Part shown: in pieces, positions 43,137 to 55,840 of the stretch
Layout: the number at the start of each line of letters is the position of its first letter
Numbering within the stretch: position 1 is the first letter of the stretch
Assembly (NCBI RefSeq): GCF_000300005.1
Contig: NC_018691.1
Span: 4,421,001-4,485,000 of the forward strand
Reading direction: 5' to 3'
Source: Alloalcanivorax dieselolei B5
Lineage (GTDB): Bacteria; Pseudomonadota; Gammaproteobacteria; Pseudomonadales; Alcanivoracaceae
Length of the DNA stretch: 64,000 nucleotides
The notes under the pieces: generated by a model
Seen by the model: only the letters and a program-made list of their open reading frames with translations
Told to the model about the DNA's origin: nothing
Database searches by the model: none
Made by a program: the position numbers and the translations under genes

Positions 43137-44096
43137 TCAAGCGGGCGGCAAGGCCCGCATGCTGCGCCGGATGAAATCCGTGGTCACCTCCGGCTGGGTC
43201 AGCGGCAACATATGGCCCCCTTCGATGAGTTCCAGTTCCACTTTGTCCGGGAACAGGTCCACCATCCCCTGCCCCTGTTCCCGGGGGTCGAGAATGCGGT
43301 CGTCGCGGCCATAGAGAATCCGGATCGGCACTTGCAGATCGGTGTAGCGCTGCTGCATTTCCGGCACCACCCCATCCAGCGCCAACAGATCCCGTGACGC
43401 CGCAATGAAATGACTGGGTCTCAGCCCGAGCGCGCCGCCACCCCGGATCGCATAGTCCGCCGGCACTGGCTCCGGTCCGAACACGATATCCAGCACCTTT
43501 TCCCGGTAGCGCATGGTCATCGGCACCATCAGCGTCCAGGCCACCAACAGGCGCAACCAGGACTGGCGTATGCCCAGCGCCGCGAACGCCTTGGAGGGAC
43601 CGGCGGAAGGCATGTGAGTCAGCGGCGCGATCAGCGTCAACCCCCGCACTTTATCCGGATACCGCAACGCGGTGGCCAGCGACAGCGCCCCGCCCAGCGA
43701 GTGCCCCACCAACATCGGCTTACCCAGTTGCAAGGCGTCGATGACGCCGGCCACCACATCGGCCTGGACCGCCAGGGAGGCGGAGGAACGCGCCGCGCGT
43801 TCCGAATAGCCGCTGCCGGGGCGATCAATGGCCACCACCCGGTAATCCTTGGCCAGTTCGCCGAGCACTTTGTAGGAGAAGTGCTGGGAAACCCCGCTCA
43901 GCCCATGAATCAGCAACAGGGTTTCCGGCCCGCTGCCTTGCTCGATGTAGTGGATACGGTTGCCCATGACCGTGACGAAACGGCCCTCCGGCGGCAAGCC
44001 GAACTGCACTTTGCGCACCGTCATCCAGGTGAAAACGAAAAGTCCCGCCGCGATCAGGATCACCACGATCAACAGGCCGCTCAGCACATACCCCAT
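43137..44096 (-). CDS. Membrane-anchored alpha/beta hydrolase
   Basis: A 319-residue hydrolase. One N-terminal helix (about 5-24) anchors it. The catalytic triad is suggested by Ser133 in GHSLGGALS, Asp in LYGRDDRIL and His in EGGHMLPL; the oxyanion-loop motif is LLIHGLSG. It lies 47 bases downstream of the AlmA/BVMO-like gene on the same strand. Baeyer-Villiger enzymes make esters, so a coupled esterase is a sensible reading. Substrate unknown. Confidence 0.85.
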   Translation of the reverse strand: MGYVLSGLLIVVILIAAGLFVFTWMTVRKVQFGLPPEGRFVTVMGNRIHYIEQGSGPETLLLIHGLSGVSQHFSYKVLGELAKDYRVVAIDRPGSGYSERAARSSASLAVQADVVAGVIDALQLGKPMLVGHSLGGALSLATALRYPDKVRGLTLIAPLTHMPSAGPSKAFAALGIRQSWLRLLVAWTLMVPMTMRYREKVLDIVFGPEPVPADYAIRGGGALGLRPSHFIAASRDLLALDGVVPEMQQRYTDLQVPIRILYGRDDRILDPREQGQGMVDLFPDKVELELIEGGHMLPLTQPEVTTDFIRRSMRALPPA

Positions 44097-44143
44097 AGCC
44101 GTTTCCTTCGCTTTTCTTCCATAAAGTTATTGAAACAGTGCGG

Positions 44144-45463
44144 TTATTGGAACTGCAGCACGCCGTCATCCAGTCTGCCGTACTGGATCATGTATTTGTC
44201 TTTCAGGTAATTCTGATGCACGCGCCAGCATTCGCGATCGCCTTGTTGCGGCATGACATCCACGCCACGCTGGACATAGCCGGAACTGAAATCGAGGAAC
44301 GGCAGCGCCTTGACGGCCGGATCGCGCCGCGCCACCGCTATCCGTGCGCCCTTCCTGTCCATGTAACGCAACAGGCGGGTCATGTAGTTGCAGGTCAGTT
44401 CGGCCTTCAACGTCCAGGACGCGTTGGTATAACCAAAGGTGAGCATCAGGTTCGGCACATCGCTGAGCATCATGCCTTTGTAAGCCATGCAGTCGGCCAC
44501 CGCCATCGTCTTGCCGTCCACTTCCAGTCGCACATCGCCCAGGGCGTTCAACTTCAGCCCGGTGGCGGTGACGATGATGTCCGCCTCCAGCTCCTGGCCG
44601 GAAGCAAGGCGGATGCCGCCCGGCGTGAAGCGGTCGATGGTATCGGTGACGATATCCACCCGCCGGGAGCGCAGCATATGGAACAGGTCGCCGTCCGGCA
44701 CCGCGCAAACACGCTGATCCCAGGGGCGGTAGTCGGGTGTGAAGTGTTTCATGTCCACCTCCGAGCCGACCTGACGCTGTGCCAGATGCAGCAGGTATTC
44801 CCGGGTGGGACCGGGCCGGGTGCGGGCATTGCGAAAGAAGCGCTGGCCGAGCAGCACGTTCTTCCAGCGGGTCAGGCGATAGGCCAGCGGCAGGGGCAAC
44901 CAGCGCTGCATGGCGTGGGCAAGCCGGTCCACCAGGGGGCGCGCGAAGATATAGCTGTGGGAGCGCTGCAGCATGGTGACCCGCGCGCCCTGTTCGGCCA
45001 GCGCCGGCACCAGGGTGACGGCGGTGGCGCCGCTGCCGATAACGACAATCCGCTTGCCCTGGTAGTCCAGTTGTTCCGGCCAGAACTGCGGATGAATGAT
45101 TTGTCCGGTAAAGTCCGATTCGCCGGGAAATTCCGGCCGGTAGCCCTCGTCGTAGCTGTAGTAGCCCGAGCAGGAGGCGATGAAGCGGGTCCGGATGCGC
45201 TCCTCCCGCGTCTGGCCGGTCCGGTCGGTGGCCTTGACCCGCACCGTCCACAACCCTTCGTCACTGGACCAGCTGGCCGACATCACCTGATGGCAGAAGC
45301 GAATGTTGTGAATGGCTCCGGACTCTTCGGCGATTTCCTCGATATAGCGCTTGTCCGGACACTTGTCGGTCAGGGCCCGGGCCGCGCCAATGCCGGACAG
45401 GCCCGCGCCGATGATCAGGACATCCAGGGGGGCGGGTTGAAATTGTTCTTGTTGTTTATTCAT
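44144..45463 (-). CDS. AlmA-like flavin monooxygenase with internal deletion
   Basis: Resembles AlmA, a BVMO-like flavoprotein linked to long-chain alkane oxidation: GAGLSGIGAA, the BVMO signature FTGQIIHPQFW (residues 118-128), second NADPH site VIGSGATAV (141-149), and MKHFTPDYRPWDQRVCAVPDGDLF. After CPDKRY (residue 40) the text runs straight into IEEIAEESG. The expected stretch of roughly 50-55 residues with ERxxxxGGTWDLFRYPGIRSDSDM is absent, and the total of 439 is short of the usual 490-500. The frame stays open. FAD binding is probably lost or altered. The start at 45463 follows GAGGAT. A TetR gene is divergent. Confidence 0.8.
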   Translation of the reverse strand: MNKQQEQFQPAPLDVLIIGAGLSGIGAARALTDKCPDKRYIEEIAEESGAIHNIRFCHQVMSASWSSDEGLWTVRVKATDRTGQTREERIRTRFIASCSGYYSYDEGYRPEFPGESDFTGQIIHPQFWPEQLDYQGKRIVVIGSGATAVTLVPALAEQGARVTMLQRSHSYIFARPLVDRLAHAMQRWLPLPLAYRLTRWKNVLLGQRFFRNARTRPGPTREYLLHLAQRQVGSEVDMKHFTPDYRPWDQRVCAVPDGDLFHMLRSRRVDIVTDTIDRFTPGGIRLASGQELEADIIVTATGLKLNALGDVRLEVDGKTMAVADCMAYKGMMLSDVPNLMLTFGYTNASWTLKAELTCNYMTRLLRYMDRKGARIAVARRDPAVKALPFLDFSSGYVQRGVDVMPQQGDRECWRVHQNYLKDKYMIQYGRLDDGVLQFQ

Positions 45464-45599: not shown

Positions 45600-46208
45600 A
45601 TGGCTACAGAAACCACAGGCAAGCGACCGTACCGGGGCACCGCCGCGCGGGAACGGCGCGCGCAGCGCCGCCAGCAGTTGATCGATGCCGCGACCGAGGT
45701 CTACGGCCACAACGGCTACCGGCATTCCAGTGTCAAACAGGTGTGCGACGCCGCCGGCCTGACCCAGCGCTATTTCTATGAGTCCTTCGGCCACAGTGAT
45801 GAACTTCTGATCGCCTGTTATGAGCAGGCCACCCGACGCCTGCGTGAGCACAACATGGCCGCCGCCGAGGCCGCGGGGGACGATCCGCAGGCTCGCAGCC
45901 GCGCCATGCTGCACTCCTATTTCCAGGAGCTGAAGGACAAACCAAATGTGGCCCGGCTGTTGCTGATCGATATTCGCGGCATCAGCCCGGCGGTGGACCG
46001 GGCCATCAACGATGCCCTGCGGGCCGGCATCCAGAACATGACCCAGGCCCTGGCCCGGCCCGGTCAGCAGTTCGACCCCATGCTCCAGGCCGGCATCCAG
46101 GGCGGCTTCATCCATATCGCGCTGTATTGGATGGCCACCGGTTACGCCCAGCCGGTGGACGCGGTGACGGAAACCGCGCTGAAGATTTGCGCCGCCCTGC
46201 TGGAATAA
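45600..46208 (+). CDS. TetR-family transcriptional regulator
   Basis: A 202-residue regulator with N-terminal helix-turn-helix (ERRAQRRQQLIDAATEVYGHNGYRHSSVKQVCDAAGLTQRYFYESFGHSDELLIACYEQ, about 14-72). The C-terminal ligand domain is helical. It is divergent from the monooxygenase-hydrolase operon, with the palindrome at 45547-45564 between them, so it most likely represses that operon and itself. The ATG at 45600 was preferred to an upstream in-frame one inside the operator. Confidence 0.88.
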   Translation: MATETTGKRPYRGTAARERRAQRRQQLIDAATEVYGHNGYRHSSVKQVCDAAGLTQRYFYESFGHSDELLIACYEQATRRLREHNMAAAEAAGDDPQARSRAMLHSYFQELKDKPNVARLLLIDIRGISPAVDRAINDALRAGIQNMTQALARPGQQFDPMLQAGIQGGFIHIALYWMATGYAQPVDAVTETALKICAALLE

Positions 46209-49583: not shown

Positions 49584-49899
49584 TCAAACGCAACGTCTCA
49601 CCACCCTGCTCGACCAACTGCAACGGGAACTGCAACGGCTGGATCTGTGGGAAACACGGCCGCCCGCGCCCGAGGCCTTCGAGAGCCTTACCCCGTTTTT
49701 CGCCGATACCATGGTGTTCAGCCAGTGGCTGCAATGGGTGTTCATCGCCCGATTCCGGGCCCTGCTGGAAGGGGAGTACCCGCTGCCGGCGCAGTGCGAC
49801 GTGGCACCGATGGCGGAGGAAGCACTGAAGGATCTGCCTCAGGACACCGAGGCGCTGGTGACGGTGCTGAAGGAATTCGACGACCACTTTCCGGGGTAA
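49576..49899 (+). CDS. yqcC: YqcC-family protein
   Basis: A 107-residue helical protein with the family text LQRELQRLDLWE, ESLTPFFADTMVFSQWLQWVFIARF, and a pocket motif PLPAQCDVAPMAEEAL. The structure of the E. coli homologue is known to be a four-helix bundle but its function is not. Translationally coupled to yigB by overlap. A REP-like hairpin follows. Confidence 0.85.
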   Translation: MTDQTQRLTTLLDQLQRELQRLDLWETRPPAPEAFESLTPFFADTMVFSQWLQWVFIARFRALLEGEYPLPAQCDVAPMAEEALKDLPQDTEALVTVLKEFDDHFPG

Positions 49900-49937
49900 C
49901 CCGGCCTCGCGAACAAGAATTCCAAGGTTTCTACAAG

Positions 49938-50015
49938 GCCGCTGTAGGAGCTTGCCCTGCAAGCGAATCTTCTAGGGTCAAACCCTTCGCTTGCAGGGCA
50001 AGCTCCTACAGCGGC
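49938..50015. repeat. REP-like hairpin, copy 2 (yqcC/elbB)
   Basis: Perfect 30-bp arms (49938-49967 and 49986-50015) with the same core as copy 1, except CTTGCCCTGC in place of CTTGCCTGC on both arms. Compensated change on both sides keeps the stem. A small inner stem GGGT/ACCC extends it. Confidence 0.9.
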
Positions 50016-50085
50016 TTCGTAGTCCGGTCTGTGGGAAACGGCCGGGCGGCCCTCCGCTCAAGAGCCGCGACCGGTCCGCCTCCGA

Positions 50086-50736
50086 TCAGCCCGCCATGGA
50101 CAGAATCTTGTCCACCAGCTTCTCGATACCCGCGGCGGCTTCCTTGATGCTGCCGGCTTCCATGTAGGCCGGCGTGGTCACCAGACGGTTTTCCTCGTCG
50201 ACGACAAAGTCGTCCACCGGACACGGTTGATGGCGCCCGCCCATCTGTTCGATGGCGGCGGCCACTTCGGTGTTGGAGCCGATGGTACAGGTGGCGTCGC
50301 CGAACAGCAGACCGGTCATGGTCGGGGAAATGCAGATCAGGCCCACGGGCTTGCCGGCCTTGTGCACGGCCTGGATGAAGTCCTTCACCGGCGGATGGAT
50401 GCTCATCTCCGCCCCTTTGAAGGCGAAGTCACACAGGTTCTTGGCGACACCGAACCCACCGGGCACGATCAGGGCGTCATAGTCTTCCGCTTTCGCCTGA
50501 CCCAGCTCGATCACTTCACCGCGCGCCAGCCGCGCCGCTTCCTTGAGCACATTGCGGGTCTCGCCCTCGTCCACCTCGCCGGTGAGGTGATTGATCACAT
50601 GCGCCTGCTCGATGTCCGGCGCGATGCACTGATAGGTCACACCGGCCCGGTCCAGGGCCAGCAAGGTAATGGTGGTCTCATAGATTTCGCTGCCGTCATA
50701 GACGCCACAGCCTGCCAGTAATACGGCTACTTTCAT
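50086..50736 (-). CDS. elbB: Glyoxalase/isoprenoid-biosynthesis-associated ElbB
   Basis: A 216-residue DJ-1/PfpI-fold protein matching E. coli ElbB: AVLLAGCGVYDGSEIYETTITLLALDRAG, LIVPGGFGVAKNL, and the nucleophile elbow VGLICISPTMTG with the Cys. E. coli ElbB has weak glyoxalase activity. The ATG overlaps the DUF502 stop (ATGA), placing it last in the greB-DUF502-elbB run. A REP-like hairpin lies beyond its 3' end. Confidence 0.92.
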   Translation of the reverse strand: MKVAVLLAGCGVYDGSEIYETTITLLALDRAGVTYQCIAPDIEQAHVINHLTGEVDEGETRNVLKEAARLARGEVIELGQAKAEDYDALIVPGGFGVAKNLCDFAFKGAEMSIHPPVKDFIQAVHKAGKPVGLICISPTMTGLLFGDATCTIGSNTEVAAAIEQMGGRHQPCPVDDFVVDEENRLVTTPAYMEAGSIKEAAAGIEKLVDKILSMAG

Positions 50737-55635: not shown

Positions 55636-55681
55636 CCGGCCTCCTCGTGAGCCCGCAGCTTCCCATTGAGGGGGCTACGAA

Positions 55682-55765
55682 GCCACTGTAGGAGCCAGCC
55701 CTGCTGGCGAATCTCTCGGGATGCCCAGAGCTCAATTCGCTTGCAAGGCAAGCTCCTACAGTGGC
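55682..55765. repeat. REP-like hairpin, copy 3, diverged (ppk/ppx)
   Basis: Outer arms pair perfectly over 14 bp (GCCACTGTAGGAGC at 55682-55695 and its complement at 55752-55765). The inner halves differ: left reads CAGCCCTGCTGGCGAAT, right ATTCGCTTGCAAGGCAA. The right half matches copies 1 and 2, while the left is a different REP subtype, so this copy looks like a composite. Confidence 0.85.
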
Positions 55766-55840
55766 CTTGCAGCAATCGCTGAATCCGGGTCCCCGAAACC
55801 CGCCAGAATTTGGGGTAGCGGAGGGTCCACGGATCGCGAT

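Follow-up and report, generated by a model that had tools for sequence, protein, structure and literature searches.

The locus analysed here lies in a 64,000-nucleotide stretch of the Alloalcanivorax dieselolei B5 genome (contig NC_018691.1, positions 4,421,001 to 4,485,000), hereafter the window. Its central gene encodes a flavin monooxygenase of AlmA or Baeyer-Villiger monooxygenase (BVMO) type and is flanked by a divergent regulator gene and a downstream hydrolase gene, as follows.

44144..45463, minus strand: AlmA/BVMO-like flavin monooxygenase gene, 439 aa, with 52 internal codons of its orthologues missing and the frame open
45392..45409, minus strand: first dinucleotide-binding motif GAGLSG, retained, residues 19-24 (coordinates derived from the gene start)
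45344..45353, minus strand: deletion junction, at which a 10-bp direct repeat, CAAGCGCTAT, is left in one copy
43137..44096, minus strand: alpha/beta hydrolase, the downstream partner, 319 aa, open frame intact
45600..46208, plus strand: TetR-family regulator, divergent, 202 aa from its ATG, open frame intact

The monooxygenase gene starts with an ATG at 45463 and remains open through 439 codons to 44144 on the minus strand. Its product retains GxGxxG, the first Rossmann fingerprint for FAD (GAGLSGIGAA at residues 19-28), as well as FxGxxxHxxxWP, the fingerprint of the BVMO type (present as FTGQIIHPQFWP), and the second Rossmann fingerprint VIGSGATA together with FTGQIIHPQFWPEQ. Downstream of the first Rossmann motif, CPDKRY is joined directly to IEEIAEESG, and the protein is without the second-strand acidic residue, the GGTW and the YPG.R.D segment, all of which are taken to contact the flavin in BVMO/FMO-like monooxygenases. 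Pfam still assigns the protein to the FMO-like family at 42.8 bits (cut-off 22), and its Rossmann-like NAD_binding_8 match, just over the cut-off of 21.9, scores 23.9 bits over residues 17-34, as against 45.5 bits over residues 17-65 in the orthologue of A. balearicus. Among the 25 of 28 NCBIfam matches listed, the monooxygenase had no family above cut-off. Both flanking genes are open and 96-99% identical to their counterparts in A. balearicus and A. xenomutans, so that the survival of the TetR and hydrolase partners, as originally predicted from this DNA, holds.

A scan of genome contigs returned 22 loci, from which 21 whole relatives were read; one locus (L014) was left out of the alignments because its match begins at a contig end, and it has no GGTW in it. 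The nearest orthologues, those of A. balearicus MACL04 (L009), A. xenomutans JC109 (L010) and Alcanivorax sp. 24 (L011), are each 491 aa long and, outside the gap, share 99%, 98% and 93% amino-acid identity, respectively, with the window protein. They sit at the same locus, like the window gene with TetR divergent upstream and the hydrolase downstream, but unlike it they are of full length and carry the 52-residue FAD block. The block, with GGTWDLF.YPG(I/V)RSDSD, is present in 21 of 21 whole relatives, down to 41% identity. In our reference alignment of 20 sequences (A3; L030 was excluded for ambiguous residues, although it too keeps the motif with one of its residues ambiguous), the core columns of GGTWDLF, YPG and RSDSD are invariant in all 20, and the acidic residue is nearly so. 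Since the block is shared by all three of the nearest orthologues and by more distant relatives, the short form is derived. The loss is of exactly 52 residues against orthologues of 491 aa, which sharpens the 50-55 residues and the lengths of about 490-500 that had been proposed; the proposal that an internal block including the GGTW/FAD segment is gone from an intact frame is confirmed by a 156-bp gap in an open 439-aa reading frame.

A survey of the order (390 genomes, 160 with a match at 1e-100) and a search of 38 relatives report frame lengths and no alignments, and are to be read as a survey, not as proof for each homologue. Among the order-survey matches listed, all frames were at least 476 aa from stop to stop, the window gene excepted, which measures 469 in that way (439 from its ATG). 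Likewise, among the matches listed in the 38-relative search, those with E below 1e-75 had frames of at least 489, again with the window gene excepted, and the weaker matches include shorter frames, e.g. 414 aa (at a contig start) and 474 aa. In the 393 plasmid records that a search returned, the best place in each lay below 60% identity, and the best record was without an annotated feature. Within the window's own genome, the two nearest paralogues of the window gene are 47-48% identical to it and both keep the GGTW...RSDSD block; weaker ones follow. A second, near-identical copy of the window gene in its own genome was considered and rejected, the best paralogues being only that similar. Equally short orthologues, which had been named as evidence that would speak against the deletion, were found neither in the 12 other genomes of the genus nor among the matches listed. 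The idea that the short form is an ancestral or alternative normal architecture of the subfamily was therefore rejected as hardly credible, given the block in 21 of 21 whole relatives (to 41% identity) and in both own-genome paralogues.

At the DNA level, five longer relatives aligned to the window gene reveal in it one clean gap of 156 bp (52 codons). The A. balearicus gene carries the 10-mer CAAGCGCTAT twice, at positions 111 and 267 and thus with a spacing of exactly 156 bp, and A. xenomutans has the same pair at the same spacing; in Alcanivorax sp. 24 the pair was not found as an exact 10-mer. The window holds a single copy, which reads ATAGCGCTTG on the plus strand and CAAGCGCTAT on the minus strand. 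A 121-bp query spanning the junction matched in one piece solely in the window's own genome when 13 genomes of the genus were compared, one genome per species as in all genome collections used here. The orthologue is present in three of the 12 others, where the query splits into positions 1-77 and 68-121, which overlap by just the 10-bp repeat. Upstream of the exact 10 bp the repeat continues imperfectly, with CCGGACA on both sides and three additional bases in the second copy. A deletion junction placed at random would be spanned by a 10-bp match with a chance of about 2e-5, and in the A. balearicus gene only 2 of 656,355 position pairs at a spacing of 30-599 share a 10-mer, one of them being this pair.

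One repeat copy and all of the intervening DNA are thus gone, exact to the base. The single copy left, the exact 156-bp gap and the overlap equal to the repeat together make up the anatomy of a short-direct-repeat deletion, from which we infer slipped mispairing as the mechanism of the 156-bp loss. A deletion between short repeats had been suggested in the original prediction, and the spacing and the single remaining copy bear this out, but the repeat is of 10 bp, not 6: the CGCTAT at 45344-45349, where the event had been placed, is the end of the full copy at 45344-45353.

The lost 52 residues comprise the second FAD Rossmann strand with LERR, the turn at GGTW, and YPGIRSDSD, which in alignments falls on the YPG region of BVMOs of known structure. 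Structures were predicted with AlphaFold from alignments of 20 sequences for the intact A. balearicus protein and 22 for the window protein. The intact model (pTM 0.87) has a strand at residues 40-44 and a helix at 86-100, and is weak inside the lost block, where residues 61-70 have a mean pLDDT of 56. The model of the window protein (pTM 0.76) has no equivalent of strand 40-44, just a short helix at 42-47, and its mean pLDDT, 83 overall, falls to 66 over residues 21-30, 46 over 31-40 and 56 over 41-50. The best folds for both models are still BVMOs, with a first-match TMq of 0.72 for the intact and 0.69 for the window protein, and the rest of the window chain thus keeps its BVMO resemblance. 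Given that the lost block holds the second FAD strand, the GGTW and the YPG stretch, conservation, the predicted structures and family knowledge together suggest that the 439-aa product should neither bind FAD nor have monooxygenase activity. The same conservation and models argue for the word "disables" in the original prediction; for its alternative, "repurposes", we have no positive evidence.

How old the deletion is can be approached through the substitutions in the rest of the gene, with A. xenomutans and Alcanivorax sp. 24 serving to polarise them. Eight synonymous and 2 non-synonymous changes fall on the window branch, against 10 and 0 on that of A. balearicus; one further change of each kind was assigned to neither. 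On the window branch the neighbouring control genes gave synonymous/non-synonymous counts of 6/2 (hydrolase), 5/1 (TetR), 12/2 (dapF), 13/3 (rlmJ) and 10/2 (DUF484); xerC was left out of the controls, just 33 outgroup codons having aligned. In its remaining 439 codons the window gene has thus changed no more at the amino-acid level than its neighbours did along this branch. Under full neutrality 76% of changes are expected to be non-synonymous, and the 2 in 10 on the window branch reject decay as a pseudogene along that whole branch (binomial P 3e-4). The difference from the 0 in 10 of A. balearicus is not significant (Fisher P 0.47), and in a simple mixture the neutral share of the branch since the A. 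balearicus split is at most roughly 30%. These sequence-derived counts would fit both a recent deletion and a short protein that is still constrained. Of the two we favour the recent deletion, since the lost block does not vary elsewhere.

Of the two private amino-acid changes, an Arg to Cys lies at a variable site (position 109 of the A. balearicus protein). The other is a Pro to His at position 221 (window codon 44957-44959), in a column that is invariant in A3. It falls in the QRSP stretch, the site of the QR(S/T)P fingerprint, about 20 residues past VIGSGATA, so that the second fingerprint region keeps VIGSGATA itself and has lost an invariant proline behind it. This may be a second damaging change beside the deletion.

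Taken together, these observations make it very probable, in our judgement, that the window gene is a frame-preserving pseudogene of an AlmA/BVMO-type monooxygenase, produced by a recent short-repeat deletion that should abolish FAD binding. In the proposed course of events, a slipped-mispairing type of event would have acted on a pair of 10-bp direct repeats at a spacing of 156 bp and removed 156 bp including one repeat copy. As 156 is divisible by three, the frame would have been kept and the product shortened by 52 residues, with most of the FAD pocket gone, presumably leaving it FAD-free and inactive. The TetR and downstream hydrolase genes would have stayed open after the event, and the two own-genome paralogues that retain the block may make the loss tolerable.

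The explanation that competes best, although we regard it as improbable, is an artefact, in which the gene is whole in the chromosome and the 156 bp dropped out during sequencing, cloning or assembly, be it in a clone or in the consensus. Library clones, too, delete at short direct repeats, which speaks for such an origin; a misjoin is unlikely, since a 10-bp repeat is far below the usual read or assembly k-mer length. The Pro to His change at an invariant position is compatible with an artefact but not predicted by one. The sequence comes from a single-contig genome of 4,928,223 bp that agrees with coordinates published for A. dieselolei B5 (PMC9788540). Its tmRNA, at 4,307,334-4,307,691, adjoins the reported antisense sRNA4307718, and position 4,758,272, that of sRNA4758272, lies as published between an ORF ending at 4,757,803 and one that, judged by its sequence, is of the antiporter-subunit-G type. 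The reference list of PMC4675940 dates the B5 genome paper to 2012, and the genome is 99.98% complete with 0.03% contamination.

Marginally less plausible still is that the shortened protein, under selection, has kept or acquired a function independent of FAD, for example the binding of NADP(H), of a ligand or of a partner, or a regulatory one. The open frame, as few non-synonymous changes on the branch as in the neighbours, the retention of VIGSGATA with FTGQIIHPQFWPEQ and a chain that is for the most part predicted to be BVMO-like would all be expected of such a protein. However, a recent event explains the low non-synonymous count equally well, the short form occurs in none of the 12 other genus genomes and is absent from the order-survey matches listed, the Pro to His change lies in the QRSP stretch behind the retained nucleotide fingerprint, and local model confidence around the junction is low. 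One particular form of this idea, which we likewise think quite unlikely, would make the 439-aa protein a stable FAD-free relic that binds NADP(H) or a lipid ligand and has a non-catalytic part to play, for instance as a ligand sink or as a partner of the TetR-controlled hydrolase. A recent, disabling deletion thus remains our preferred reading.

We take the AlmA of Acinetobacter and of B5 to belong to the same flavin monooxygenase superfamily as the window gene. Linear interpolation of its position puts the window gene near B5T_04026, and it is therefore none of the three AlmA genes described for A. dieselolei B5, B5T_00581, B5T_00657 and B5T_02052 (PMC4675940). Identity with a published almA was thus rejected on position alone, and the AlmA label of the original prediction stands in the sense of AlmA/BVMO-like only. 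According to passages of PMC12449030 and PMC11784139, AlmA, which acts in long-chain alkane metabolism, is an alkane hydroxylase in B5 and a Baeyer-Villiger monooxygenase in A. baylyi ADP1. A passage of the latter source also reports an Ig-like domain in AlmR, the B5 repressor of almA (PMC11784139), whereas for the TetR protein of the window Pfam gave TetR_N only. The literature searched, with no query by locus tag, made no mention of the window-gene deletion.

The association of the monooxygenase with its two partners varies among relatives. We searched for the neighbours by tblastn at 1e-4 over the 22 loci, a plasmid locus (L068) and the surroundings of the own-genome paralogues. TetR and hydrolase occurred together at 5 of the 22 loci, three from Alcanivorax/Alloalcanivorax and two from Halopseudomonas, and both also stand beside the homologue on the Cupriavidus campinensis plasmid (L068). 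Of the remaining loci, TetR alone was found at two and a hydrolase match alone, partial or weak, at another two; the other 13 had neither. At the same threshold neither partner was found around the two own-genome paralogues.

In Alcanivorax sp. 24 (L011, 6451-7308) and Halopseudomonas pelagia (L016, 6491-7309), the monooxygenase and hydrolase genes are separated by a gene for a short-chain dehydrogenase; in two further loci, L012 and L013, the space between them measures 871 and 885 bp and holds open runs of 277 and 291 codons. The window (at 44097-44143), A. balearicus and A. xenomutans leave no room for it, and the best short-chain dehydrogenase matches elsewhere in these three genomes are 48-50% identical. 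One own-genome paralogue, at 2232339 of the B5 genome (G000), adjoins a 48% relative of this dehydrogenase (2231460-2232248). Either loss in the clade of the window or gain in the others would account for this pattern.

Elsewhere in the window, an intergenic palindromic element at 49899-50089 has 37-nt arms that are 95% complementary and 18 nt apart; it has a weaker match at 55661-55768 and is absent at the corresponding place in A. balearicus. The 80 matches listed for it in its own genome, with many places counted on both strands (40 of 215 candidates were scored), make it look like a REP-like family of many copies.

This locus is a clear example of how misleading an intact frame and a family name can be. 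As the frame survived, an annotation pipeline is likely to call a normal gene here, and the gene is likely to be counted as AlmA-like even though its cofactor site is apparently gone. A model alkane degrader in which one paralogue is likely already knocked out by nature would help to sort out which of its flavin monooxygenases take long-chain alkanes or ketones as substrates. In other respects the loss looks like ordinary, even routine, gene decay in a family with spare paralogues, concealed because the reading frame survived.

Among proteins of known structure, the intact orthologue and its profile match phenylacetone monooxygenase (1w4x), OTEMO (3uov) and cyclohexanone monooxygenase (7v8o), with the likeness strongest over the first 225-245 residues. 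In the alignments shown for two of them, OTEMO and cyclohexanone monooxygenase have the GGTW...YPG segment, in contrast to the window protein, which is without it. At the DNA level the parallel lies in E. coli, where frame-preserving deletions between short direct repeats, attributed to slipped mispairing, have been studied. We know of no respect in which the window deletion differs from these events, in which one repeat copy and the intervening DNA are likewise lost, between repeats of ~10 bp spaced less than 1 kb apart.
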